Source: Vibrio hyugaensis (GTDB lineage Bacteria > Pseudomonadota > Gammaproteobacteria > Enterobacterales > Vibrionaceae). Taken from it: 64,000 nucleotides of DNA. The notes under the pieces were generated by a model that ran no database searches, was not told the origin of the DNA, and was given only the letters and a program-made list of their open reading frames with translations. The stretch spans positions 3,348,001-3,412,000 of the forward strand of contig NZ_CP025794.1 in the NCBI RefSeq assembly GCF_002906655.1. The letters run 5' to 3'. Positions 5,719 to 35,091 of this stretch are shown here, one piece after another. How positions within the stretch are numbered: the stretch's first letter is position 1; every line of letters starts with the position of its first letter. The position numbers and the translations under genes were made by a program.

Positions 5719-6780
5719 TTGGAATTTTTATTAGATTATGGTCTGTTTTTAGCCAAGATTATCACCGTTGTTGCGGCCGTGGTTGTGCTGCTGATTATTG
5801 CAAAATCGGCGGGTGGTAAATCGGGTGCTGCGAAAGGCGAATTGGAAGTCACCAATCTTTCTGAGCGTCATAAAGATGCAATCGAACAGTTAGAACATCA
5901 CCTGCACGATGACGCTTTCATCAAAGCTCGTGATAAAGCGGCTAAGAAGGAAGAGAAAGAAAAGAACAAATCTCGTGGGAAAGAAATCAAACAAGCGAGC
6001 AAAGAAGGTTCTCTTGATAGCAAGCGCGAACCGCATCTGTTCGTGTTGGACTTCAACGGAAGTATTGATGCAAAAGAAGTGGGCTCTCTACGTGAAGAGA
6101 TCACTGCAGTATTAGCGGTAGCTCGTGAAGGCGATGAAGTGCTGCTTCGTCTAGAGTCTGGTGGTGGTATGGTCCATGGCTATGGCTTAGCATCTTCTCA
6201 ACTTGATCGAATCAAAGCTGCAGGTCTGCCTCTGACGATTTCTGTCGACAAAGTGGCAGCAAGTGGTGGCTACATGATGGCATGTGTGGCAGACAAGATT
6301 GTGTCTGCGCCGTTTGCGATTGTAGGTTCTATCGGCGTTATCGCGCAGATCCCTAACTTCAACAAACTGTTGAAAAAACACGATATCGAATATGAGCAGC
6401 TAACAGCTGGTGAGTACAAGCGTACACTAACGATGTTTGGTGAGAACACCGACAAAGCGCGTGATAAGTTCAAACAAGAACTTGAAGGAACACACGTACT
6501 GTTCAAAGATTTCATCAGTGAACGTCGCCCAGCGCTAGAACTTGAAAAAGTCGCAACCGGTGAGCACTGGTTTGGTACGCAAGCGAAAGAGCTAGGGCTG
6601 GTGGATGAAATCAGCACTTCTGACGATCTGGTTGTTGCGGCATGCAAAGAGAAAACCGTACTAGCAGTGCATTACGTACAGAAGAAAAAACTGGCAGACA
6701 AGCTTGCCGGTGTTGCAGGCAAAGTAGCAGACAGTGTTGTGCTTAAACTTGCAGAGCGTGGTCAAAAGCCAATTGTGTAA
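5719..6780 (+). CDS. sohB: SohB, inner-membrane S49 family peptidase
   Basis: Membrane-bound serine protease of the SppA/S49 family (353 aa). A single N-terminal transmembrane helix (residues ~7-27) is followed by a charged Lys/Glu-rich linker and the protease domain. The nucleophile serine is in the conserved ASGGY segment, and VGSIGV is also present. The start is TTG at 5719, preceded by GAGG at 5707-5710; no ATG fits the membrane helix better. In E. coli SohB is a multicopy suppressor of htrA loss, and its substrates are poorly defined. A strong terminator follows directly. Confidence 0.92.
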   Translation: MEFLLDYGLFLAKIITVVAAVVVLLIIAKSAGGKSGAAKGELEVTNLSERHKDAIEQLEHHLHDDAFIKARDKAAKKEEKEKNKSRGKEIKQASKEGSLDSKREPHLFVLDFNGSIDAKEVGSLREEITAVLAVAREGDEVLLRLESGGGMVHGYGLASSQLDRIKAAGLPLTISVDKVAASGGYMMACVADKIVSAPFAIVGSIGVIAQIPNFNKLLKKHDIEYEQLTAGEYKRTLTMFGENTDKARDKFKQELEGTHVLFKDFISERRPALELEKVATGEHWFGTQAKELGLVDEISTSDDLVVAACKEKTVLAVHYVQKKKLADKLAGVAGKVADSVVLKLAERGQKPIV

Positions 6781-25600: not shown

Positions 25601-26662
25601 TTAATCTACCGTAGTTGGCGGGAAGGCCTTGCTGCCTAAAACATGACCATTCACTTTTTTGCCGTAGTACCCTTGGTGGTTGTGGTACTTCGCTGCGTTT
25701 GCTTGTAAATCACCTTTGTAGCGAGGGTCTTGTGGTCGTTCGTGGCTGTTGATATAAGCCGCGACATCCCATGCATCTTGTTTACTCAATTGAACGCTTT
25801 TGCCCAAAGGCATGTTCTCGTAGATGAAGTAAGCCGCAGTGTTGATGCGGTGCATGCCTGCGCCCCAGTTGTAAGCGTATTCACCCCATAAAGGTGGAAT
25901 GTAAGAGCGGCCGTTTTCATCGTGAATACCTTGTCCGCTCTCTCCATGACATGCCGCGCAGTTGTCGACGTAAACTTGCGCGCCACGCTTTGGAGAAGGA
26001 TCTAAGTCTGGATTCTCAATTTTTGGATAACCTCGGCCCGCTAGGGTGCCACGTTTATCTGTTGGTAACGCGTTGGCGATTTTCTCTGGCAAAGGGAAGT
26101 TTTCTGTTTTACCACCCGTCAGTAATTGCTTGGTGCTAATGGCAGGTACAGGTGTCTCCTGCATACCATATTGATCCAGTAACCCTCCCATGGCTAACCA
26201 ATATGCGTAAGCGCTAAGTGCTTCGAGTTCTTTTGAATCTTTTGTTGGTGGTTTGCCGTTCATTGAGTAAGTAAAGCAACCTTGAATACGATCGGCGTAA
26301 CTGTTCACTTTATCGTTCTTTTTTCGATAAGCAGGGTAAGCCATGTACGCAGCCCAGAGTGGTGCGGCATTGGCTTTTCGTCCGGCTTCCATGTGGCAGT
26401 TTACACAGTTTTGCTCGTTACCCACATAACGCCCACGCATTTGCTGGGAGTTTACAAACAATGAATAGCCATACTTCACTTTTTGACCGAATTCATCATT
26501 AGTAATCGTGCTGAGATCGCGCGGTTTTAGATATTTGGTATCCGCGTGTTTTTCTGTTGCTGGCAATTCTGTTTGGCGGTCTGGGAGCTCATTGTTTTTT
26601 GTACTTGCTGCGCTTACAGCAGTCGACATGCCAGCAAGAAGTAGGGAATAAATCAGTTTCAT
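25601..26662 (-). CDS. tsdA: TsdA, diheme thiosulfate dehydrogenase / tetrathionate reductase
   Basis: Periplasmic cytochrome c (353 aa) interconverting thiosulfate and tetrathionate. The signal peptide is residues 1 to about 18. Two heme sites are seen: CVNCH at 86-90 and CAACH at 235-239. Cys129 lies in GCFTYSMNG, which matches the unusual cysteine heme ligand segment of TsdA and separates it from ordinary c-type cytochromes. The start overlaps the tsdB stop (ATGA). The preferred direction, thiosulfate oxidation or tetrathionate reduction, cannot be read from sequence. Confidence 0.88.
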   Translation of the reverse strand: MKLIYSLLLAGMSTAVSAASTKNNELPDRQTELPATEKHADTKYLKPRDLSTITNDEFGQKVKYGYSLFVNSQQMRGRYVGNEQNCVNCHMEAGRKANAAPLWAAYMAYPAYRKKNDKVNSYADRIQGCFTYSMNGKPPTKDSKELEALSAYAYWLAMGGLLDQYGMQETPVPAISTKQLLTGGKTENFPLPEKIANALPTDKRGTLAGRGYPKIENPDLDPSPKRGAQVYVDNCAACHGESGQGIHDENGRSYIPPLWGEYAYNWGAGMHRINTAAYFIYENMPLGKSVQLSKQDAWDVAAYINSHERPQDPRYKGDLQANAAKYHNHQGYYGKKVNGHVLGSKAFPPTTVD

Positions 26663-27282
26663 TTCGACTCCTCATAACGCAAAGAAGCGAAGTAGTAAGA
26701 CAGGTTTTCGATTTCTTTATCGGTGAGCTTTTTCGCGATGCTGCCCATCATATTGAGTGGGTCACCGCTTCGTGTGCCGTTCTTCCAAGCATGAAGTTGG
26801 TTTTGCAGGTAATCGGCTTGTTGGCTAGCAAGACGTGGGAACTTATCTACACCTATGCCACTTGCGCCATGGCAAGTTGAACAGGCGGGAATATTTCGAT
26901 CCCAATCGCCTTGATAGACTAATTTTCGGTAAGGGTTCGCGATATCGGCTTGATCGCCACGCTGTTCAAGGTCAGTAAATTCCCATGTTGGCAATTGAGC
27001 AAAGTATTTCAGTACCTCTGCTCGAAGCTTGGGAGCAGCAAGTTCATCTGCCATGCCTTTCATGATGATATTGTGGCGTCTATCGCTAGAGAAAAGTTCC
27101 AGTTGGTTTTCCATGTAATCGGGTTGAAGTCCGGCAAGCATAGGCGCAATACCAGCTTGGCCTTTACCATCAACACCATGACATCCGGTGCAAATCTCAC
27201 CGTGTTCTGGAACAGGGGCAGAATAGGCTGCAAAACTGGCGGTACTCCAGAAAAGTACAACCAAAGAAATGCTACGAAACAT
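26659..27282 (-). CDS. tsdB: TsdB, diheme c4-type cytochrome electron partner of TsdA
   Basis: 207-aa periplasmic diheme cytochrome c. The signal peptide is residues 1 to about 19. CTGCH at 31-35 and CSTCH at 134-138 lie in two similar halves, as in cytochrome c4. TsdB carries electrons for TsdA. The pair overlaps by four bases. A GTGGAAATCCAC palindrome lies 66 bp upstream of the ATG and is shared with the ttrB promoter, so co-regulation with tetrathionate reductase is likely. Confidence 0.85.
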   Translation of the reverse strand: MFRSISLVVLFWSTASFAAYSAPVPEHGEICTGCHGVDGKGQAGIAPMLAGLQPDYMENQLELFSSDRRHNIIMKGMADELAAPKLRAEVLKYFAQLPTWEFTDLEQRGDQADIANPYRKLVYQGDWDRNIPACSTCHGASGIGVDKFPRLASQQADYLQNQLHAWKNGTRSGDPLNMMGSIAKKLTDKEIENLSYYFASLRYEESK

Positions 27283-27346
27283 GCTGACTCACTTTTGATT
27301 ATTATTTGAGCGCAGTATTGTGAGTATTGTTATTAGTTGTGGCTAT

Positions 27347-27360
27347 TGTGGAAATCCACA
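27347..27360. promoter_or_regulatory. Palindrome upstream of tsdB, candidate TtrR site
   Basis: TGTGGA-AA-TCCACA is a perfect inverted repeat. Its 12-bp core is the exact reverse complement of the core at 32502-32513 before ttrB. Both lie 66-67 bp upstream of the respective start codon. The binding protein is inferred to be TtrR. Confidence 0.65.
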
Positions 27361-27400
27361 TAAATTATGTGAAGAGCAATTTTGAGAATGGGCATTCAGT

Positions 27401-27438
27401 ACAAAACAGGCTTCTTCCCTGTAACAGAAAGAAGCCTG
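27401..27438 (-). terminator. ttrBCA operon terminator
   Basis: CAGGCTTCTT (27407-27416) pairs perfectly with AAGAAGCCTG (27429-27438), followed on the minus strand by TTTTGT. Confidence 0.9.
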
Positions 27439-27463
27439 ATGATTGTGTTTCGTTTTGAGTGGA

Positions 27464-30400
27464 TTATACTTTGCGAATTTTCGCAGGTAGAGATTGACGT
27501 GCCGCCGCGCCGACAACCCAATCCAGCATTACGCCTTTGCCTTCACGTGTTGGGTCAATCAAACCAATGTCGTTGATGTTGACGCCATCATGACCGCTGG
27601 TTTTCACTGGTTGCTGTTTATCACCAATCCAGTGCGCGCGCTGACCAAGCTCTGTATGACCAAAGCCATGTTCAAAACCTAGGGTACCTTGGCGAATACC
27701 AGACACCACCATCGCAAGCGCTTTGGTGCTGGCTCCTGGTGTTTCAATCACGAAATGATCACCGGTTTGAATGCCAGCCACTGCTGCATCCGCTGGATGG
27801 ATGTAGACCGGGTTAACGCCTTTAATCGAACTTAAACGAGGGGATAGGTTGGAGACCGCGCTGTGAATGTTCGATTTAAAATTGGTCAAACTGAACGGCC
27901 ACTCGGTTTTCGGGTATTGAGTCTCAAGTGGCGTGCCATCTGCGAGCTTTTGTGGATGCCAAGTCGGACAGCCGCTGTAGAACTCTCCCGTCATGGTGTT
28001 TCTTGCGCTGCCAACACGCTCGTTCCAAATCGCGACAGGACGTGTCCACTTGTACTTCATTTGCTCGCCTTTATAGGCTTCTGTGGCGTTTTCAAAACGA
28101 CCACCACGAGCAAAAATGTACGCCACGCGCTTCATCTCATCTGGTGTTAGTGCTTTTTGCATACTCGGCAATAGGCGTTCAAGGCCAGACCAAGCGATGT
28201 CTTCTGCGCTCACTTCTGGTACACCGCCTTTAACGTAGGCAAGGTTGGCTGCTGAGCGAAGATAGAAGTCTTCAGCAGAGTGAATACCGTGTAAACGACC
28301 TTCCGTGTCTTTGATGGCGTTGTCACCAAAGCCGCCCAGTTGCATCTTTTTGGCGATATCAATCAGGAAGTTCTCCAGACAAATACTGCGACCATCGGCG
28401 GTTTTTTCTGTGCGAGCTTCCACGATTGGCCAGCGAGCCGTCACTGCTTTTACTGGAACATCATGCCAAGGCGATGCCATGCCCCAGCTTTCGTAAGTGA
28501 CGGTATCTGGCACGATGTAGTCCGATAGTGCCGTTGTCTCGTTGATGAAGGCATCGACAGAAACAATCAAACCAAGCTGCTTTGGATCTTTTAGCTTGTC
28601 TTCAAGCAGCGTTTTTAAACCCGGTACGCCATAGATTGGGTTCGCCATATGGTTGATCCACGCTTTCACTCGGTATGGATAACCATCGATCGCCGCCGAT
28701 AGATGCTCGGTAAGCAAAGGTGCTGCAAACGGATACCAAGGTGCACGAGTAGGGTAAGGGGATTCTCCCGCCTCCACGCGACGTTTGTATTCGCTAGTTT
28801 TCTGGTAAGGGAATTTACTGCGTGAAAGGAACACGCCTTTTGGTCCCACTTTGCCTTCAAACTTAGTGAAGTCGTAGCGAGGGCCTGCCGCAGATGTTGG
28901 ATAACCACCTGCTTTTGCCATCGCGCCGCCTTTCATGTTGATGTTACCAATCAAGGCATTAAGCATCATGATGGTGAAGGCGTTGTAGAAACCATTGGTG
29001 TGCATGTTGCCGCCGTGGGTATCAACAACCGCTTTAGTGCCATGACTGGTAAAGCGTTTTGCTAGCGCGATGATTTGGTCCACAGGGATCTCACATTGCT
29101 CGCTGTAGAAGTCCAGATCGTATTTAAACGCTTCTTCTTTCAAACGTTGCAATGATGATTTGACACGAACGACACCAGAAGCCAATTCAACATCTTGGTC
29201 GACAAATAATGCCGCTTCTCCAGCTTGTTTGTGCATGCTCAAATCGCCGCTTTGCGCATCGACAATCACGTATGGATCTGTCTCTGACAGTGCTTCCCCT
29301 TCAAATGGCATGCCCATTTCAGATGCACGCAAGAAATGCCCGTGACGTGGGTGAGATTCATCGCTGATCACAAGGTGAGTGGCATTACACCAATGTGCCG
29401 TGCCCACTCTTTGTATCGCCGTTGCTCCTGGCTGAGCAAGGAAGGTTTTGTTGTAGCGTTCGTTGGCGATGATCCACTGAATCATGCCAAGAACCAAGGC
29501 AGAGTCGGTGCCCGGTTTGATTGGCATCCAATGGTTGTTGTCGCCTGCGGCAAGGCTTGATGAACCTGCTGGCAAGCTCGGCGTGATGATGGTGTATTCC
29601 AGTTTACCTTCGGTGCGCGCTTTGGCTAGCTGACGAGCCTGACGTTTGAACGGGTTACCCGCCTGTGCTGGCGACATGCCAATAAAAATAACGTATTCGG
29701 CATTATCGAAGTCCGGCTTTAAGTGAGCGTTCTTATCCAAATCATTCATGAAAGCACCGCTGCCTGCACGGAATGCGTAGCCACAATAAGATCCGTGGTG
29801 ACCGAAGTTACGCGTACCAAAGCTGTTAAAAGCAAAGCGCTTGAAGATATCATCACGACCTTCGTTACCTGCGTTGGTCACCAGAAGTTGGTTAGCTTTC
29901 GGGCCGTATTCTGGGTTTTGCGGATCAACAGGGGTAGTGAGGTCGCGAATGTCTTTCAAACCTTCAACATGACCTTCGCCAAACAGATCGCCGCCGTTGA
30001 CCACTTCATCCACCAATTGCTCGTAGCTGATTGGTTCCCATTTGCCTTCACCACGTTTACCCACACGTTTCAGTGGTTGGGTAATACGGTAAGGGCTATT
30101 ACGAATTTCCATCATGCCGTTACCACGAGCACACGCTGTGGAACGGCCTTCTAAACCGTTTTCACCCGCCATGCTCAAGTAAGCGTCTTTTACTGGCGTC
30201 TCAAATGGAATGTGCTGTTGATGTGATAGCGGGTGGTATGGGTTACCCGAAATGCGCAGGATCTCGTCGTTACGATTGTCGATACGAACGCGCAAGCCAC
30301 ATAAGCTCCAACAACCAAAACACATTGATGGGGCAACACGCTGATTTGGGTTTGGAATTAAGTTGCCCTTGTCGTTCACCTTGTATTCGGGCTCAAGTGA

Positions 30401-30556
30401 GTTGCCGTGGTGAATATCACGGGTTTTCTCACCCGCAGTGCCGTGAATAGCTCCTTCTACCATGTGTTTTGTGGTAGTTGCATAACCAGCAGCAAAGGCA
30501 CCAAGCCCGCCCACTGCAATGCCAGATTTCAAAAACTGACGGCGTTTGTTATCCAT
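27464..30556 (-). CDS. ttrA: Tetrathionate reductase subunit A (molybdopterin catalytic subunit)
   Basis: Large periplasmic molybdopterin guanine dinucleotide enzyme (1,030 aa) that reduces tetrathionate to thiosulfate during anaerobic respiration. The Tat signal is RRQFLKSG near residues 5-12. An N-terminal 4Fe-4S site is seen in CFGCWSLC, with later CARG completing the set. Many segments are typical of the DMSO-reductase superfamily (GNPYHPLS, DTHGGNMHTNG). It is the last gene of ttrBCA, 17 bp after ttrC, and ends at a strong terminator. Confidence 0.95.
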   Translation of the reverse strand: MDNKRRQFLKSGIAVGGLGAFAAGYATTTKHMVEGAIHGTAGEKTRDIHHGNSLEPEYKVNDKGNLIPNPNQRVAPSMCFGCWSLCGLRVRIDNRNDEILRISGNPYHPLSHQQHIPFETPVKDAYLSMAGENGLEGRSTACARGNGMMEIRNSPYRITQPLKRVGKRGEGKWEPISYEQLVDEVVNGGDLFGEGHVEGLKDIRDLTTPVDPQNPEYGPKANQLLVTNAGNEGRDDIFKRFAFNSFGTRNFGHHGSYCGYAFRAGSGAFMNDLDKNAHLKPDFDNAEYVIFIGMSPAQAGNPFKRQARQLAKARTEGKLEYTIITPSLPAGSSSLAAGDNNHWMPIKPGTDSALVLGMIQWIIANERYNKTFLAQPGATAIQRVGTAHWCNATHLVISDESHPRHGHFLRASEMGMPFEGEALSETDPYVIVDAQSGDLSMHKQAGEAALFVDQDVELASGVVRVKSSLQRLKEEAFKYDLDFYSEQCEIPVDQIIALAKRFTSHGTKAVVDTHGGNMHTNGFYNAFTIMMLNALIGNINMKGGAMAKAGGYPTSAAGPRYDFTKFEGKVGPKGVFLSRSKFPYQKTSEYKRRVEAGESPYPTRAPWYPFAAPLLTEHLSAAIDGYPYRVKAWINHMANPIYGVPGLKTLLEDKLKDPKQLGLIVSVDAFINETTALSDYIVPDTVTYESWGMASPWHDVPVKAVTARWPIVEARTEKTADGRSICLENFLIDIAKKMQLGGFGDNAIKDTEGRLHGIHSAEDFYLRSAANLAYVKGGVPEVSAEDIAWSGLERLLPSMQKALTPDEMKRVAYIFARGGRFENATEAYKGEQMKYKWTRPVAIWNERVGSARNTMTGEFYSGCPTWHPQKLADGTPLETQYPKTEWPFSLTNFKSNIHSAVSNLSPRLSSIKGVNPVYIHPADAAVAGIQTGDHFVIETPGASTKALAMVVSGIRQGTLGFEHGFGHTELGQRAHWIGDKQQPVKTSGHDGVNINDIGLIDPTREGKGVMLDWVVGAAARQSLPAKIRKV

Positions 30557-30573
30557 AATGAAATCCTCTTATA

Positions 30574-31671
30574 TCAGTGTTGAGTTAGGGTTGAAGGTGC
30601 CGATTCACGCTTTGGTTGAATCAGTTCCGAGCCAAGCAATGCAAGCGCAATCCATAGGCCAAACATGCCGATGATGCCAAGCAAACCGTTACTGCCCATA
30701 GGCAAATCGTATGGGTAAGGGCCGACGTCGAACTTGGCGATGGTTTGTACTTCCATCATGGTGATCCAACGAACAGTCCACGCTGTGGTCAGTGCCATCC
30801 CAGACATGAATAACACTCGAATGAAGTGACGATTGGTATCGCGCAGTGTAAACAGTGCAAGCAGCACACTACCCAACAGCAAAGACGTTAGCAATGCGAT
30901 GTGCTGTACCCATAATGGAGAAGCGTAAAGGGATGAGCTGGCATTGTTAGATGCCCAGATAGGAATCAACAACAGCGATAATGCACCACTAATTGCGGTA
31001 GTTTGGCGCAGCAAGCGAGTATCACCAAAGGTAAAGCGTTCAGATTTTAAAGGGATCAGAAGCCAAAGGAGCAATGTAAAACCAACCGCACCAATAAACG
31101 CGGTAACGAACCAAAGCACAGGTGATGCGGGTTGATGCCAAAGTGAACGTGATTCCACCACAGCAATCTCTGCACCTGTGTAAAGTGCGATAGTTAGGCC
31201 AGACAACACAGTGACTATCGCTGTGGTAATCATCAGTTTACGGCTAGTTTTCCAACGGCCCAATGACAACTTAGCAAGTAGCGGAAATACTTTGCCCGGA
31301 TGGTTTTCTAGGTTTATCAGATCATTACGCAGATACAACCATGCCGTTGCCACAGCCAAGCCAGAGAACAGTGGTAAGAACAACGAACCTAATGACATCC
31401 AAGACCATGGGGTTAAATGTGCGTAGAAATGCCACGCGCGCCCCGGCTGGTGGAGGTCGCCTGTTAACGCGAGAGGGCCAACGATCGCGCCAATCGCAAG
31501 AGTAAGCACCAAGGCAGCACGCAGACGATGGCTAGTGTGAGATTCAAACAACAGCGCGATTAAGAACAAAATAGCTGCCGCATAAGCCGACCCGATGTAG
31601 AAGAAATATTGCACCGCCCACGGAAGCCAAGCGATGGCCTGAGGCTGTACGAGCACTTCGGTTATGTTCAT
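30574..31671 (-). CDS. ttrC: Tetrathionate reductase subunit C (NrfD-like membrane anchor)
   Basis: Integral membrane quinol oxidase subunit of the NrfD/PsrC family (365 aa, about nine transmembrane helices). It passes electrons from menaquinol to TtrB. The ATG overlaps the ttrB stop codon (ATGA). The order B-C-A is the same as in Salmonella. Confidence 0.92.
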   Translation of the reverse strand: MNITEVLVQPQAIAWLPWAVQYFFYIGSAYAAAILFLIALLFESHTSHRLRAALVLTLAIGAIVGPLALTGDLHQPGRAWHFYAHLTPWSWMSLGSLFLPLFSGLAVATAWLYLRNDLINLENHPGKVFPLLAKLSLGRWKTSRKLMITTAIVTVLSGLTIALYTGAEIAVVESRSLWHQPASPVLWFVTAFIGAVGFTLLLWLLIPLKSERFTFGDTRLLRQTTAISGALSLLLIPIWASNNASSSLYASPLWVQHIALLTSLLLGSVLLALFTLRDTNRHFIRVLFMSGMALTTAWTVRWITMMEVQTIAKFDVGPYPYDLPMGSNGLLGIIGMFGLWIALALLGSELIQPKRESAPSTLTQH

Positions 31672-32435
31672 GCTTTTTCTCCTTGTGGATCGTAAATCGC
31701 AGGCTGACCTTCAATGTGTTGAGTGAAGCGTTCATTCATGCCGATGTAGAACACGTGGGGTTTGGTGCCTTCGTTTGGCTTAAGCACCTTGATGTCGTCT
31801 TGGTGCTCAGTCACCAAGCGGCGAACTTCGCTGTTCGGATCGTTGATATCACCAATTACACGGGCACCACCGACGCACGTTTCCACGCAAGCAGGCAGCA
31901 AACCTTCTTCGAGGCGATGTGCGCAGAAAGTACATTTGTCCGCAGTTAGGGTCTCTTCGTTGATGAAGCGCGCATCGTAAGGACAAGCCTGAACGCAGTA
32001 TGCACACGCCACGCAGCGACTGTTATCGACCATCACGATGCCGTCTTCTCGTTGGAAGGTGGCTTGCACCGGACAAACGGCCACACACGGCGGGTTATCA
32101 CAGTGGTTACACAAGCGCGGCAGCATGAAAGATTTCACTTCTTCTGTTGCGGTTGAGCCATCATCGAGGGTGACTTCATACTGCTTTACTGTGGTTCGGA
32201 ACTGGCCAATAGGGGCTTGGTTCTCGATGCTGCAACCGACGGTACAAGCCTGACAGCCAACGCATTTACGCAAGTCGACAACCATGGCGTAGCGTTTACC
32301 GACTTGGCCTTTTCGGTCGGGTTCATTGTTGTTTCTGATCACAGTGCCTGCTGTGGCTGTGCCAATTCCGGCGATCGGAATCAGCGCAGCGCCTGCGGTA
32401 ACGGCACTGAGAAAACGGCGTTTGGTGGAATCCAT
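31668..32435 (-). CDS. ttrB: Tetrathionate reductase subunit B (4Fe-4S ferredoxin subunit)
   Basis: Electron-transfer subunit (255 aa), exported by the Tat system (KRRFLSAV near the start). Four cysteine clusters are visible: CVGCQACTVGC, CNHCDNPPCVAVCP, CVACAYCVQACP and CTFC...CVETC. First gene of ttrBCA. AGGTGAGTT gives a good ribosome binding site. The promoter lies in the 138-bp divergent region shared downstream with ttrS. Confidence 0.94.
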   Translation of the reverse strand: MDSTKRRFLSAVTAGAALIPIAGIGTATAGTVIRNNNEPDRKGQVGKRYAMVVDLRKCVGCQACTVGCSIENQAPIGQFRTTVKQYEVTLDDGSTATEEVKSFMLPRLCNHCDNPPCVAVCPVQATFQREDGIVMVDNSRCVACAYCVQACPYDARFINEETLTADKCTFCAHRLEEGLLPACVETCVGGARVIGDINDPNSEVRRLVTEHQDDIKVLKPNEGTKPHVFYIGMNERFTQHIEGQPAIYDPQGEKA

Positions 32436-32501
32436 AACTCACCTGCTAAGATTGATTAGAGCTTGTTTTCATTGTCAGAATTGCAGCCCTTTGCCGATAT
32501 A

Positions 32502-32549
32502 GTGGATTTCCACATACCGAGAGCAAAGTTGATCTAAAACAAATGTGGA
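32502..32549. promoter_or_regulatory. ttrB-ttrS divergent control region: palindrome, FNR-like site and half-site
   Basis: GTGGATTTCCAC at 32502-32513 is identical as a palindrome to the site before tsdB. A sequence TTGAT-N4-AACAA at 32529-32542 matches nine of ten FNR consensus positions. A TGTGGA half-site is at 32544-32549. Together these fit control by TtrR plus anaerobiosis, as known for Salmonella ttr. Binding is inferred. Confidence 0.6.
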
Positions 32550-32606
32550 TTCCGCTATGTTGCTGTTATTCTGATGCTCCCAATACCGAGGATTAAGAAA
32601 CAATTC

Positions 32607-34499
32607 ATGCTGAACAAATCGCTAAACTTCATTCGCTTATGGATTGTTTTTATCAGTCTTATGCTCGGCTGCTTCACGGTTTCTTTTGCACATGCAGCAC
32701 CAACGCAGACATTAGATTCCAGCGCTTTCTCTAAACCGCAAGTCGATGTGGGTGTGCTAGCCATACGCGGCCATTTATATGCGGAGCAGCGTTGGCAACC
32801 GACGATTTACTGGCTCAATCAACAGATCCCTGAAGTGCGGTTTGTTCTCCATCCGTTAGATCTCGATGGCATGACCAAAGCAGTCGAAAACCAAAGCATG
32901 GACTTCATTCTCACCAACCCAGGACAAGCAGTGCGCTTGGGGCGTCAGTACGCGCTGTCTTGGATAGCGACGTTGACCAGCCAAGCGCCAGAGAACTCCA
33001 ATTACGGCATCGGTTCTGCGCTGGTGGTGCGTTCTGATTCGCCTTATTCCACACTCAATGATGTTTCCGGTTTGCCGATTGCAGCGGTGTCAGAGAAAGC
33101 GTTTGGTGGCTACCTCACATTGCGTTATCAAGTGATAGAGAAAGGGTTAGATCCGAACGATTTCTTCTCGGATGTGCGCTTTTTAGGCTTCCCAATTGAT
33201 GCCAACTTGTACCAACTGCGTGACCACAATGTGGAGGCCGCTGTTGTTCCAGCTTGTTTGGTTGAGCAAATGGAAGGTGAAGGGCTATTGGAAGAGGGGC
33301 AACTGCGGGTTTTAAGTCCGCTTAAACTTCCTCAAACCGAGTGTGCAGTATCGACGCCCCTATATCCAAATTGGTCCTTTGCGAAAACGGAGCGTGGATC
33401 GTCTCAATTAGCCAAGAAGATCAGTCGAGCCTTACTTGCGATGCCTGCCGATAATCCCGCTGCGATTGCAGCCAAAGCATCCGGTTGGACATCACCAGTC
33501 AGTTTGTTGTCGATAGATAAACTCTACCAAGCGATGGACTTGCACCCACTGCAGCAACCTTGGTGGAAAGAGGCGTTACGCTGGCTACGTTTCCATCAAG
33601 AATGGGCGTGGGCGTTGTTTCTGTTTGTTATTGTGTTGAACATTTACCACTTCTGGCTGGAGTATCGTTTCAGCAAGAGTAAACAAGCGCTAGAGAAAAC
33701 CTTACTGCGCTTAAAAGAGAAGAGCGAGATGCTAGAGCACTCACAACGAGTGGCTATTGTGGGCGAATTAGGCAGCAGTCTTGCGCACGAGATAAACCAA
33801 CCTTTAGCGGCGATCCGAAACTACAGCGAAGGTGGCTTGTTACGATTAGCTAAGAAGCGTCCTCATGAAGATATCGTGCCGGTATTAGAAAAGATTCAGA
33901 CGCAAGTAGAACGCGCCGACGCGATCGTTTGTCGCCTGCGAACCTTGATTAAAAAGCGCAGTGTCGACATGACGGCGTGCGATGTGGAGCAACTGATCTC
34001 TGATACGGTTGAGTTGCTGAATTTCCGCTTGCAGAAGCAAGGCATTGAAGTGGTTCGCAGCACCGAAGGACAACCCCAATGGGTCGAAGCTGATGCCGTC
34101 GGTTTACAGCAAGTGTTGGTGAACGTGATGAACAACTCGATAGATGCTTGTGTGATGTACGCAGAAAATCATCCTAACAATTACCAAGGCAAAATTGCGC
34201 TTCACACGGATTATCAAGCTGGAAGTATGTCGATTCGAGTGTTGGATAACGGTACGGGTTTGGAGCATGAGAACCCAACCGCCGCCTTTGTGAGTACAAA
34301 ACAGGAAGGGCTAGGGCTGGGCTTGGCGATCTGTCGTGATGTGATGGAGATGCATGGTGGTGAATTCGTTATCCAATCTACTCAGCCACACGGTTGCTTG
34401 GTGGTATTAACCTTGCCGTATCAAACCATGAAAACAACCGATGCAAAACGCAACGACGAAGAACAAACAAAAAGAAACACAGGAGAAGTGAATGAGTGA
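32607..34499 (+). CDS. ttrS: TtrS, tetrathionate-sensing histidine kinase
   Basis: Membrane sensor kinase, 630 aa from the ATG at 32607. That start places a good signal-anchor (LWIVFISLMLGCF) at the N-terminus; an upstream ATG at 32574 adds 11 residues. A periplasmic PhnD-like binding domain spans about residues 40-300. A transmembrane helix is at about 334-349, then a coiled linker and the HisKA-type domain with His394 in LAHEINQPL. The ATPase part has NSIDA and GTGLGLAICRD-like motifs. It overlaps ttrR by eight bases. Confidence 0.92.
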   Translation: MLNKSLNFIRLWIVFISLMLGCFTVSFAHAAPTQTLDSSAFSKPQVDVGVLAIRGHLYAEQRWQPTIYWLNQQIPEVRFVLHPLDLDGMTKAVENQSMDFILTNPGQAVRLGRQYALSWIATLTSQAPENSNYGIGSALVVRSDSPYSTLNDVSGLPIAAVSEKAFGGYLTLRYQVIEKGLDPNDFFSDVRFLGFPIDANLYQLRDHNVEAAVVPACLVEQMEGEGLLEEGQLRVLSPLKLPQTECAVSTPLYPNWSFAKTERGSSQLAKKISRALLAMPADNPAAIAAKASGWTSPVSLLSIDKLYQAMDLHPLQQPWWKEALRWLRFHQEWAWALFLFVIVLNIYHFWLEYRFSKSKQALEKTLLRLKEKSEMLEHSQRVAIVGELGSSLAHEINQPLAAIRNYSEGGLLRLAKKRPHEDIVPVLEKIQTQVERADAIVCRLRTLIKKRSVDMTACDVEQLISDTVELLNFRLQKQGIEVVRSTEGQPQWVEADAVGLQQVLVNVMNNSIDACVMYAENHPNNYQGKIALHTDYQAGSMSIRVLDNGTGLEHENPTAAFVSTKQEGLGLGLAICRDVMEMHGGEFVIQSTQPHGCLVVLTLPYQTMKTTDAKRNDEEQTKRNTGEVNE

Positions 34500-35091
34500 T
34501 AAGCAACTGCCCGTATTTGTGGTCGACGATGATGAGTCGGTGCGAGATTCGTTGGCGTTTATGCTCGAAGAACATGACTTCTCTGTGACGACGTTTGCCG
34601 ATGGGCAGGCGTTTCTCGATGGCGTGGATATCCATCAAGCAGGCTGCGTGATTCTGGATAGCCGAATGCCGTATTTACGTGGCCAACAAGTGCATCAAAT
34701 CCTCAATGAAGCCAAAAGTCCACTGGCGGTGATTTACTTAACCGGGCATGGCGATGTGCCAATGGCGGTGGATGCGCTGCAAGCTGGTGCGGTGAATTTC
34801 TTCCAAAAGCCCGTAAAAGGGGATGAGCTGGCACAAGCGATTTTGAAAGGCCAAGTTCAATCTGCGGCGAATCTGGATATCGCAGGTGCTAAAGCGGCGT
34901 ATGAATCGCTGACGCCAAGAGAGAAAGACATTCTGCGTTTGATCATCGCGGGAAAGCGCAATATTCGCATTGCCGATGAGCTGTGTATTGCGATGCGAAC
35001 GGTGGAAGTACATCGCGCAAGCCTGTTGAAAAAGTTCTCGGCAAAAACCGTGGCAGAGCTGGCTTACATCTACGGCAAACTGGCGCAATAA
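34492..35091 (+). CDS. ttrR: TtrR, FixJ/NarL-type response regulator
   Basis: 199-aa regulator. The receiver domain has the acidic pocket VDDDE (residues 11-15) and the phospho-acceptor Asp56 in ILDSRMP. The C-terminal LuxR helix-turn-helix begins LTPREKDILRL and contains ADELCIAMRTVEVHRASLLKK. It is activated by TtrS when tetrathionate is present and switches on ttrBCA. The palindromes before ttrB and tsdB are its most likely targets. Confidence 0.93.
   Translation: MSDKQLPVFVVDDDESVRDSLAFMLEEHDFSVTTFADGQAFLDGVDIHQAGCVILDSRMPYLRGQQVHQILNEAKSPLAVIYLTGHGDVPMAVDALQAGAVNFFQKPVKGDELAQAILKGQVQSAANLDIAGAKAAYESLTPREKDILRLIIAGKRNIRIADELCIAMRTVEVHRASLLKKFSAKTVAELAYIYGKLAQ

Follow-up and report, generated by a model that had tools for sequence, protein, structure and literature searches.

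A 64,000-nucleotide stretch of the Vibrio hyugaensis genome (NCBI RefSeq assembly GCF_002906655.1, contig NZ_CP025794.1, positions 3,348,001 to 3,412,000 of the forward strand; hereafter the window) contains the gene cluster ttrRS-ttrBCA-tsdBA in the arrangement known from V. parahaemolyticus, with one copy of a short palindrome in front of tsdB and another in front of ttrB. We consider it very probable, at roughly 0.93, that both palindromes are operators through which the response regulator TtrR activates ttrBCA and tsdBA; for this strain, the assignment draws on orthology and conservation. An earlier sequence-only reading of the window predicted this circuit and took a co-regulated Ttr plus Tsd module to be undescribed. 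The module has in fact been published by Zhong et al. 2024 for V. parahaemolyticus (PMC11293645). The prediction is correct but already known, and most of its proposed tests have already been done in that related species.

The published TtrR circuit

In V. parahaemolyticus, whose cluster is given as ttrRS-ttrBCA-tsdBA, TtrR is reported to bind a "ttrR box", GTGG-N4-CCAC, and to activate ttrRS, ttrBCA, and tsdBA. Gel shifts were obtained with the ttrB, ttrS, and tsdB promoters and were lost once GTGG-N4-CCAC was deleted; the deletion also abolished TtrR-dependent promoter activity, and lux activity in a ttrR mutant was 100.7-fold lower for ttrB and 293.3-fold lower for tsdB. RNA-seq is among the further published support for the regulon, TtrRS is called absolutely required, and TsdBA is described as oxidising thiosulfate to tetrathionate, thereby feeding the sensor TtrS. 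One result is less tidy, in that box-deleted promoters were more active than intact ones in the ttrR mutant, which the authors attribute to altered promoter structure (PMC11293645). The action of TtrR on both operons via the palindrome, as the sequence-only reading had proposed, is thus documented in that species by gel shift, box deletion, and lux measurements, and our literature search found tsdBA treated together with ttrBCA in this paper only. The window has the same cluster and the same GTGG-N4-CCAC at ttrB/ttrS and at tsdB, but it comes from another species and its tsdB box is flipped.

Two complementary palindromes in the tsdB and ttrB promoters

The 12-mers GTGGAAATCCAC (27348-27359) and GTGGATTTCCAC (32502-32513) are exact reverse complements, as had been noted from the sequence, and each is a near-perfect palindrome in which five of six base pairs pair up and only the centre mismatches. 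Judged by sequence match and conservation, the first is the putative TtrR box of tsdB (minus strand, reading GTGGATTTCCAC in the direction of transcription), and the second is the putative box shared by the divergent ttrB and ttrS. The distance from box to start codon is 65 nt at tsdB (ATG at 27282) and 66 nt at ttrB (ATG at 32435), both genes being on the minus strand; the earlier figure of 66-67 bp was right within a base or two, though not exact. The near-equality of the two distances is coincidental, since the tsdB distance in relatives ranges from 63 to 221 nt, many of these values being approximate because only 12 of the 46 tsdB starts fall on an ATG and the others are alignment ends. 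The regulatory genes ttrS (32607..34499) and ttrR (34492..35091), both on the plus strand, do lie in the same locus, as had been stated. Read toward the gene, the tsdB promoters of Vibrio species in which tsdBA is linked to ttr have GTGGAAATCCAC in 38 of 41 cases and the GTGGATTTCCAC of the window in three; because both orientations occur, the asymmetry of the centre is incidental.

Conservation of the box across Vibrio

Among 227 genomes of the genus, TtrB was matched in 62 (E<=1e-60) and TsdA in 46 (E<=1e-50). The scan covered the 250 nt upstream at one TtrB locus per genome, always the best, and at all 46 TsdA loci, most of which fall inside the TtrB stretches; weaker second TtrB matches (G076, G058, and G017; 58-66% identical) lay outside this survey. 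The exact box was found at ttrB in 61 of the 62 best loci, or in 62 of 63 when the decayed locus L186 is counted, and the sole miss (L185) is a 52%-identical paralogue that has no ttrSR. At tsdB, the box is present in all 41 tsdBA operons that adjoin ttr and in none of the five unlinked ones (L187-L191), whose complete stretches of about 10 kb each contain no box. The expectation that the motif recurs in other Vibrio ttr and tsd promoters is therefore borne out for ttrB and for linked tsdB, and fails for unlinked tsdBA. Three of the five genomes with unlinked tsdBA have a ttr locus elsewhere (G207, G075, and G162); in G207 this ttr locus carries the box, yet the unlinked tsdBA (66% identical) does not. 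The unlinked TsdA proteins of G075 and G162 are more distant (51-52% identical), and the G185 genome, another of these five, is 73% complete.

Column counts over 50 distinct ttrB and 28 distinct tsdB contexts revealed a conserved island in both promoters, consisting of AT, the box, and (A)ATA. The neighbouring columns mostly drift in both, while ttrB additionally keeps an FNR-like ATCAA.

As a separate observation, ttrBCA looks decayed in L186 (G200), where TtrC has no match, TtrB is in three pieces, and TtrA is represented by a short piece only; this locus still has ttrSR, tsdBA, and both boxes. In Vibrio hangzhouensis (L184 and L233), the neighbourhood of ttrA encodes a TsdA-like protein with only 34% identity, and TsdB has no match.

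The box beyond Vibrio follows the regulator genes

To relatives outside the genus, the comparison was extended with the best 80 of 562 TtrB relatives in genome contigs, some of which overlap the Vibrio survey genomes. In this set, ttrS or ttrR lies nearby in 56 of the 80 loci, and in 55 of these 56 the exact box is found no more than 350 nt from ttrB. The box was found at the promoter position in none of the 24 loci that lack ttrSR, six of which offer too little upstream DNA; in one of the loci without ttrSR, from Aurantimonas (L235), a box match lies 313 nt away. This distribution indicates that the box follows the regulator genes. The exception among the 56 is Shewanella hanedai (L232), which has GCGGAAAACCAC with one mismatch (GCGG) at the equivalent place. 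In an alignment of 19 chosen proteins, a helix that we take to be the recognition helix reads RTVEVHR in all 17 box-bearing TtrR proteins and RTLEIHK in S. hanedai, whose altered box and changed helix are possibly a co-evolved pair. Moritella dasanensis (L230) has tsdBA beside ttr with the box GTGGATAACCAC upstream. Grimontia hollisae (L211) has a ttrS match, the box, and an FNR-like site, with no ttrR match within the fetched stretch.

Two known systems are close in form. The Salmonella-type TtrSR-ttrBCA loci of Enterobacterales, represented here by Citrobacter, Providencia, Yersinia, Morganella, and related loci, share the divergent ttrSR/ttrBCA layout and an FNR-like site 15 bp upstream of GTGG-N4-CCAC. 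They differ in the box centre, which is TTAA, TAAA, or AAAA rather than AAAT, and no TsdA or TsdB match was found in any Enterobacterales stretch examined. The Shewanella ThsSR system acts at PphsA342 through the operator TATGTGGTTTACCACAAT, which shares its core with the TtrR box, resembles it at the edge, and is likened to FixJ sites by Daeffler et al. 2017; in contrast to the TtrR system, ThsSR is described as sensing thiosulfate, controlling phsA, and using CRP as co-activator (PMC5408782).

A composite FNR-like element at ttrB

The FNR consensus is TTGATN4ATCAA. In the window, the 14-mer TTGTTTTAGATCAA (32529-32542, minus strand) agrees with nine of its ten positions and ends exactly 15 bp before the ttrB box; it is identical to the corresponding 14-mers of Citrobacter youngae (L270) and Buttiauxella (L283). 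An FNR-like site, defined loosely as a match with at most two mismatches, occupies this exact position in all 62 Vibrio loci with a ttrB box, with no mismatch in one, one in 60, and two in one. Among the box-bearing named loci of the 80-of-562 set, it stands at 15 bp in 54 of 55 and at 16 bp in Gallibacterium. The corresponding place at tsdB shows 5-10 mismatches in all 40 promoters with enough sequence, the 41st being too short; elsewhere in the 250 nt, four of the 40 have a two-mismatch FNR-like match, never at the 15-bp spacing. Across the genus, 103 of 227 genomes contain ATCAA-N15-GTGG-N4-CCAC, compared with 22 of 227 that contain a reversed control (counted by eye), so part of the 103 is due to chance. 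No description of a 15-bp spacing between FNR and TtrR sites was found in the available portions of PMC11293645 or PMC5408782.

Because the FNR-like site is conserved at ttrB and missing from the equivalent place at tsdB, an input from FNR (or CRP) is predicted at ttrB and not at tsdB. The site could instead belong to CRP, a reading we prefer less because fewer consensus positions match CRP than FNR, as judged by eye. The published view stands against an FNR input, and the FNR-like site sits uneasily with it: Zhong et al. argue that the Vibrio ttr promoters are FNR-free because ttrBCA induction occurs with oxygen, although the FNR passages of that paper report no Vibrio fnr mutant (PMC11293645). 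The ttrB promoter of Salmonella is reported to require FNR, and in S. baltica activation was lowered by a truncation reaching into the FNR-like site (PMC5408782). Oxygen tuning of the ttrB arm is less certain than the predicted role of the boxes as TtrR operators.

In 60 of 62 ttrB and 38 of 41 tsdB promoters, a hexamer ending in AAT occupies positions +37 to +42 counted from the start of the box; in the other five it is off by one base. The corresponding hexamers of the window, CACAAT at tsdB (27317..27322) and GACAAT at ttrB (32471..32476), both on the minus strand, are tentatively assigned as -10 elements. If they are, and if transcription starts about 7 nt later, the centre of the box would fall near -43 and that of the FNR-like site near -71.

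A sister TtrSR-like system beside a rhodanese operon

The genome encodes one close paralogue of TtrR (49%; the next response regulator reaches 31%), which forms a TtrSR-like pair at about 782-789 kb of contig G000:C1 (L192:4345-11359). The sister kinase also has a phosphonate-binding-type domain, and the divergent genes encode proteins with rhodanese, pyridine-nucleotide oxidoreductase plus 4Fe-4S, CCG (cysteine-rich), and VTT domains; among the matches listed, none of these genes reaches an NCBIfam equivalog cut-off, and no publication on the locus was recognisable by title or abstract start among 10 of 21 literature matches. The sister regulator was matched at E<=1e-80 in 13 genomes, a threshold at which more distant paralogues would be missed. 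In all 13, a single GTGG-N4-CCAC with AATA after it stands in the intergenic region, and, read in the direction of the rhodanese operon, an FNR-like site with 1-2 mismatches lies upstream of this box at a distance of exactly 15 bp. TtrB has no match at E<=1e-60 in ten of these genomes, where the box is therefore presumably the sister's own. TtrR of V. parahaemolyticus is reported to bind the promoter of a paralogous pair, 05905-05910 (PMC11293645), which is probably this sister pair given similar identity values and the map distance in G111. A box at the rhodanese operon is not described in the available portions of PMC11293645 or PMC5408782.

Alternative explanations and points against the assignment

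The sister system suggests an alternative, namely that the boxes at ttrB and tsdB are mainly operators of the paralogous pair (G000:C1, about 782 kb), with TtrR sharing them by cross-talk. The helix of the paralogue, RTIEVHR, is nearly identical, its own promoter has the same type of box and the same spacing, and in V. parahaemolyticus the paralogous pair is reported to raise ttrBCA 3.0-fold and tsdBA 1.4-fold. Yet 58 of the 61 ttr-bearing Vibrio genomes fall outside the 13 with the sister regulator (at a threshold that misses more distant paralogues) and keep the box, and the same study describes TtrRS as absolutely required (PMC11293645). We therefore regard this alternative as highly unlikely.

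A recent duplication of one promoter could also leave a shared motif in the absence of selection for a common regulator, given that the operons adjoin and the box with its (A)ATA edge is common to both. Within one locus, the ttrB and tsdB promoters outside the core have a mean identity of 19% (left 40 nt) and 26% (right 21 nt) over 40 loci, which is about chance, so neither promoter is a recent copy of the other; the FNR-like site is moreover confined to ttrB. Duplication was rejected on these grounds and is given very little probability.

That the two 12-mers are a chance pair with no regulatory role is hardly credible, for although the motif is no more frequent than its control and the additional copies examined lie inside open reading frames, both copies stand in the tsdB and ttrB promoters, 62 ttrB and 41 tsdB promoters retain the sites despite drifting flanks, and box deletion ends TtrR binding and activation in V. 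parahaemolyticus, which already refutes chance for the orthologous locus (PMC11293645).

TtrR operators thus remain the preferred interpretation, and several observations nevertheless weigh against it. Exact GTGGAWWTCCAC occurs twice in the 64-kb window, and these two copies are the only ones in the 5.61-Mb genome; a reversed control pattern also occurs exactly twice, and with one mismatch allowed the counts are 52 and 43, so the bare count is not above chance. Since the Vibrio sequences are related, the locus counts are not independent trials. Moreover, the best TATAAT match in a blind search downstream of the box falls on the candidate -10 hexamer in 36 of 62 ttrB promoters and in only 6 of 41 tsdB promoters, which weakens the claim of a fixed spacing between box and -10 element. 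Finally, TtrA, TtrB, TtrC, TtrS, and TtrR each score below the curated cut-off of the NCBIfam equivalog that is their best match, and the score of TtrB with the DsrO model, 233.8, exceeds the cut-off of 200 set for that model while staying below its score with the TtrB model. The five ttr names rest on best matches and on the synteny shared with the V. parahaemolyticus locus.

The non-random part of the signal is the placement of both exact copies in these two promoters, plus their conservation. When the conserved edges are included, the extended pattern ATGTGGN4CCACAATA matches four places in the genome with at most one mismatch: tsdB (0 mismatches), ttrB (1), the promoter of the TtrSR paralogue (1, on both strands), and the interior of a TonB-receptor open reading frame, the last being rejected as a regulon site because of that position. 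When up to two mismatches are allowed, the pattern has 35 matches and the control 26, a small excess. At least 19 further exact copies of GTGGAWWTCCAC occur outside the ttrB and tsdB promoters among ttr-bearing genomes, and the 11 of these examined (eight genomes, L193-L203) all lie inside open reading frames of at least 100 aa and lack the extended context; these 11 were treated as chance occurrences and not as further regulon members.

Genes of the locus

The catalytic subunit of the molybdopterin tetrathionate reductase would be encoded by ttrA (27464..30556, minus strand; NCBIfam TtrA 1403.8 bits, curated cut-off 1750), the NrfD-type membrane subunit by ttrC (30574..31671, minus; TtrC 229.3 bits, cut-off 314; PF03916), and the 4Fe-4S subunit by ttrB (31668..32435, minus; TtrB 386.4 bits, cut-off 416). 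The TtrB proteins of the window and of V. jasicida, which belongs to the Vibrio harveyi group, are 100% identical, pointing to a vibrio of this group as the source. No relative of TtrA was found in the PDB at E<=1e-20. On the plus strand, ttrS encodes a sensor kinase with a phosphonate-binding-type periplasmic domain (TtrS 433.6 bits, cut-off 750; PF12974, PF00512, and PF02518), its start being taken as the second in-frame ATG of an open reading frame that opens at 32574, and ttrR encodes a FixJ/NarL-type response regulator (TtrR 208.6 bits, cut-off 290; PF00072 and PF00196).

The tsd genes were named from Pfam domains and heme motifs, with a structure-sequence alignment in addition for tsdA. 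The product of tsdB (26659..27282, minus strand) is a diheme cytochrome c partner with two CxxCH motifs and PF00034 in two stretches, and its gene overlaps tsdA (25601..26662, minus), which encodes a diheme cytochrome c thiosulfate dehydrogenase / tetrathionate reductase. TsdA has the SoxA/TsdA domain (PF21342) and a second cytochrome c domain (PF00034), both above the Pfam cut-offs, two CxxCH motifs, and the Cys of the CF motif, presumably a ligand. It aligns with PDB 5lo9 and with the thiosulfate dehydrogenase 4wqc across both heme domains, and this Cys is aligned in both. The sequence-only reading called TsdA bidirectional; the activity reported for V. parahaemolyticus is the oxidation of thiosulfate (PMC11293645).

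Discussion

The proposed circuit begins with TtrS, which would sense tetrathionate and lead to phosphorylated TtrR dimers. Bound to GTGG-N4-CCAC immediately upstream of the -35 region, these dimers would activate ttrBCA, the divergent ttrSR (one exact box lying between them), and tsdBA. TsdBA would then convert thiosulfate to tetrathionate and so feed the sensor, while TtrBCA would respire the tetrathionate. Through the FNR-like site at ttrB, the reductase arm may additionally be tuned by oxygen via FNR (or CRP), and the tsdBA arm may not.

The composite element, like the linkage rule and the sister operon, adds to what the available portions of PMC11293645 and PMC5408782 contain. To the broader proposal, which is built on comparison of promoter sequences, we give about even odds. 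It holds that GTGG-N4-CCAC together with an FNR-like site, exactly 15 bp further upstream, forms a conserved composite element, present at ttrB in lineages ranging from Vibrio to Enterobacterales as well as at the sister rhodanese operon, whereas linked tsdBA has the box alone. The tetrathionate-making arm would accordingly run with oxygen and the reductase arm would receive an oxygen-dependent boost, contrary to the published FNR-free view. The sister system would act on a sulfur-transfer operon of its own, via an operator also readable by TtrR.

An enzyme that makes the signal inducing both itself and the enzyme that consumes the signal is an unusual regulatory design, and the circuit bears on how vibrios colonise the gut and on tetrathionate biosensors. 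The comparison also suggests how regulon membership arises, with the box present where tsdBA adjoins ttr and absent in the five unlinked cases, and it points to a second TtrSR-like system. The FNR-like site, for its part, offers a sequence-level ground for re-testing FNR in Vibrio.

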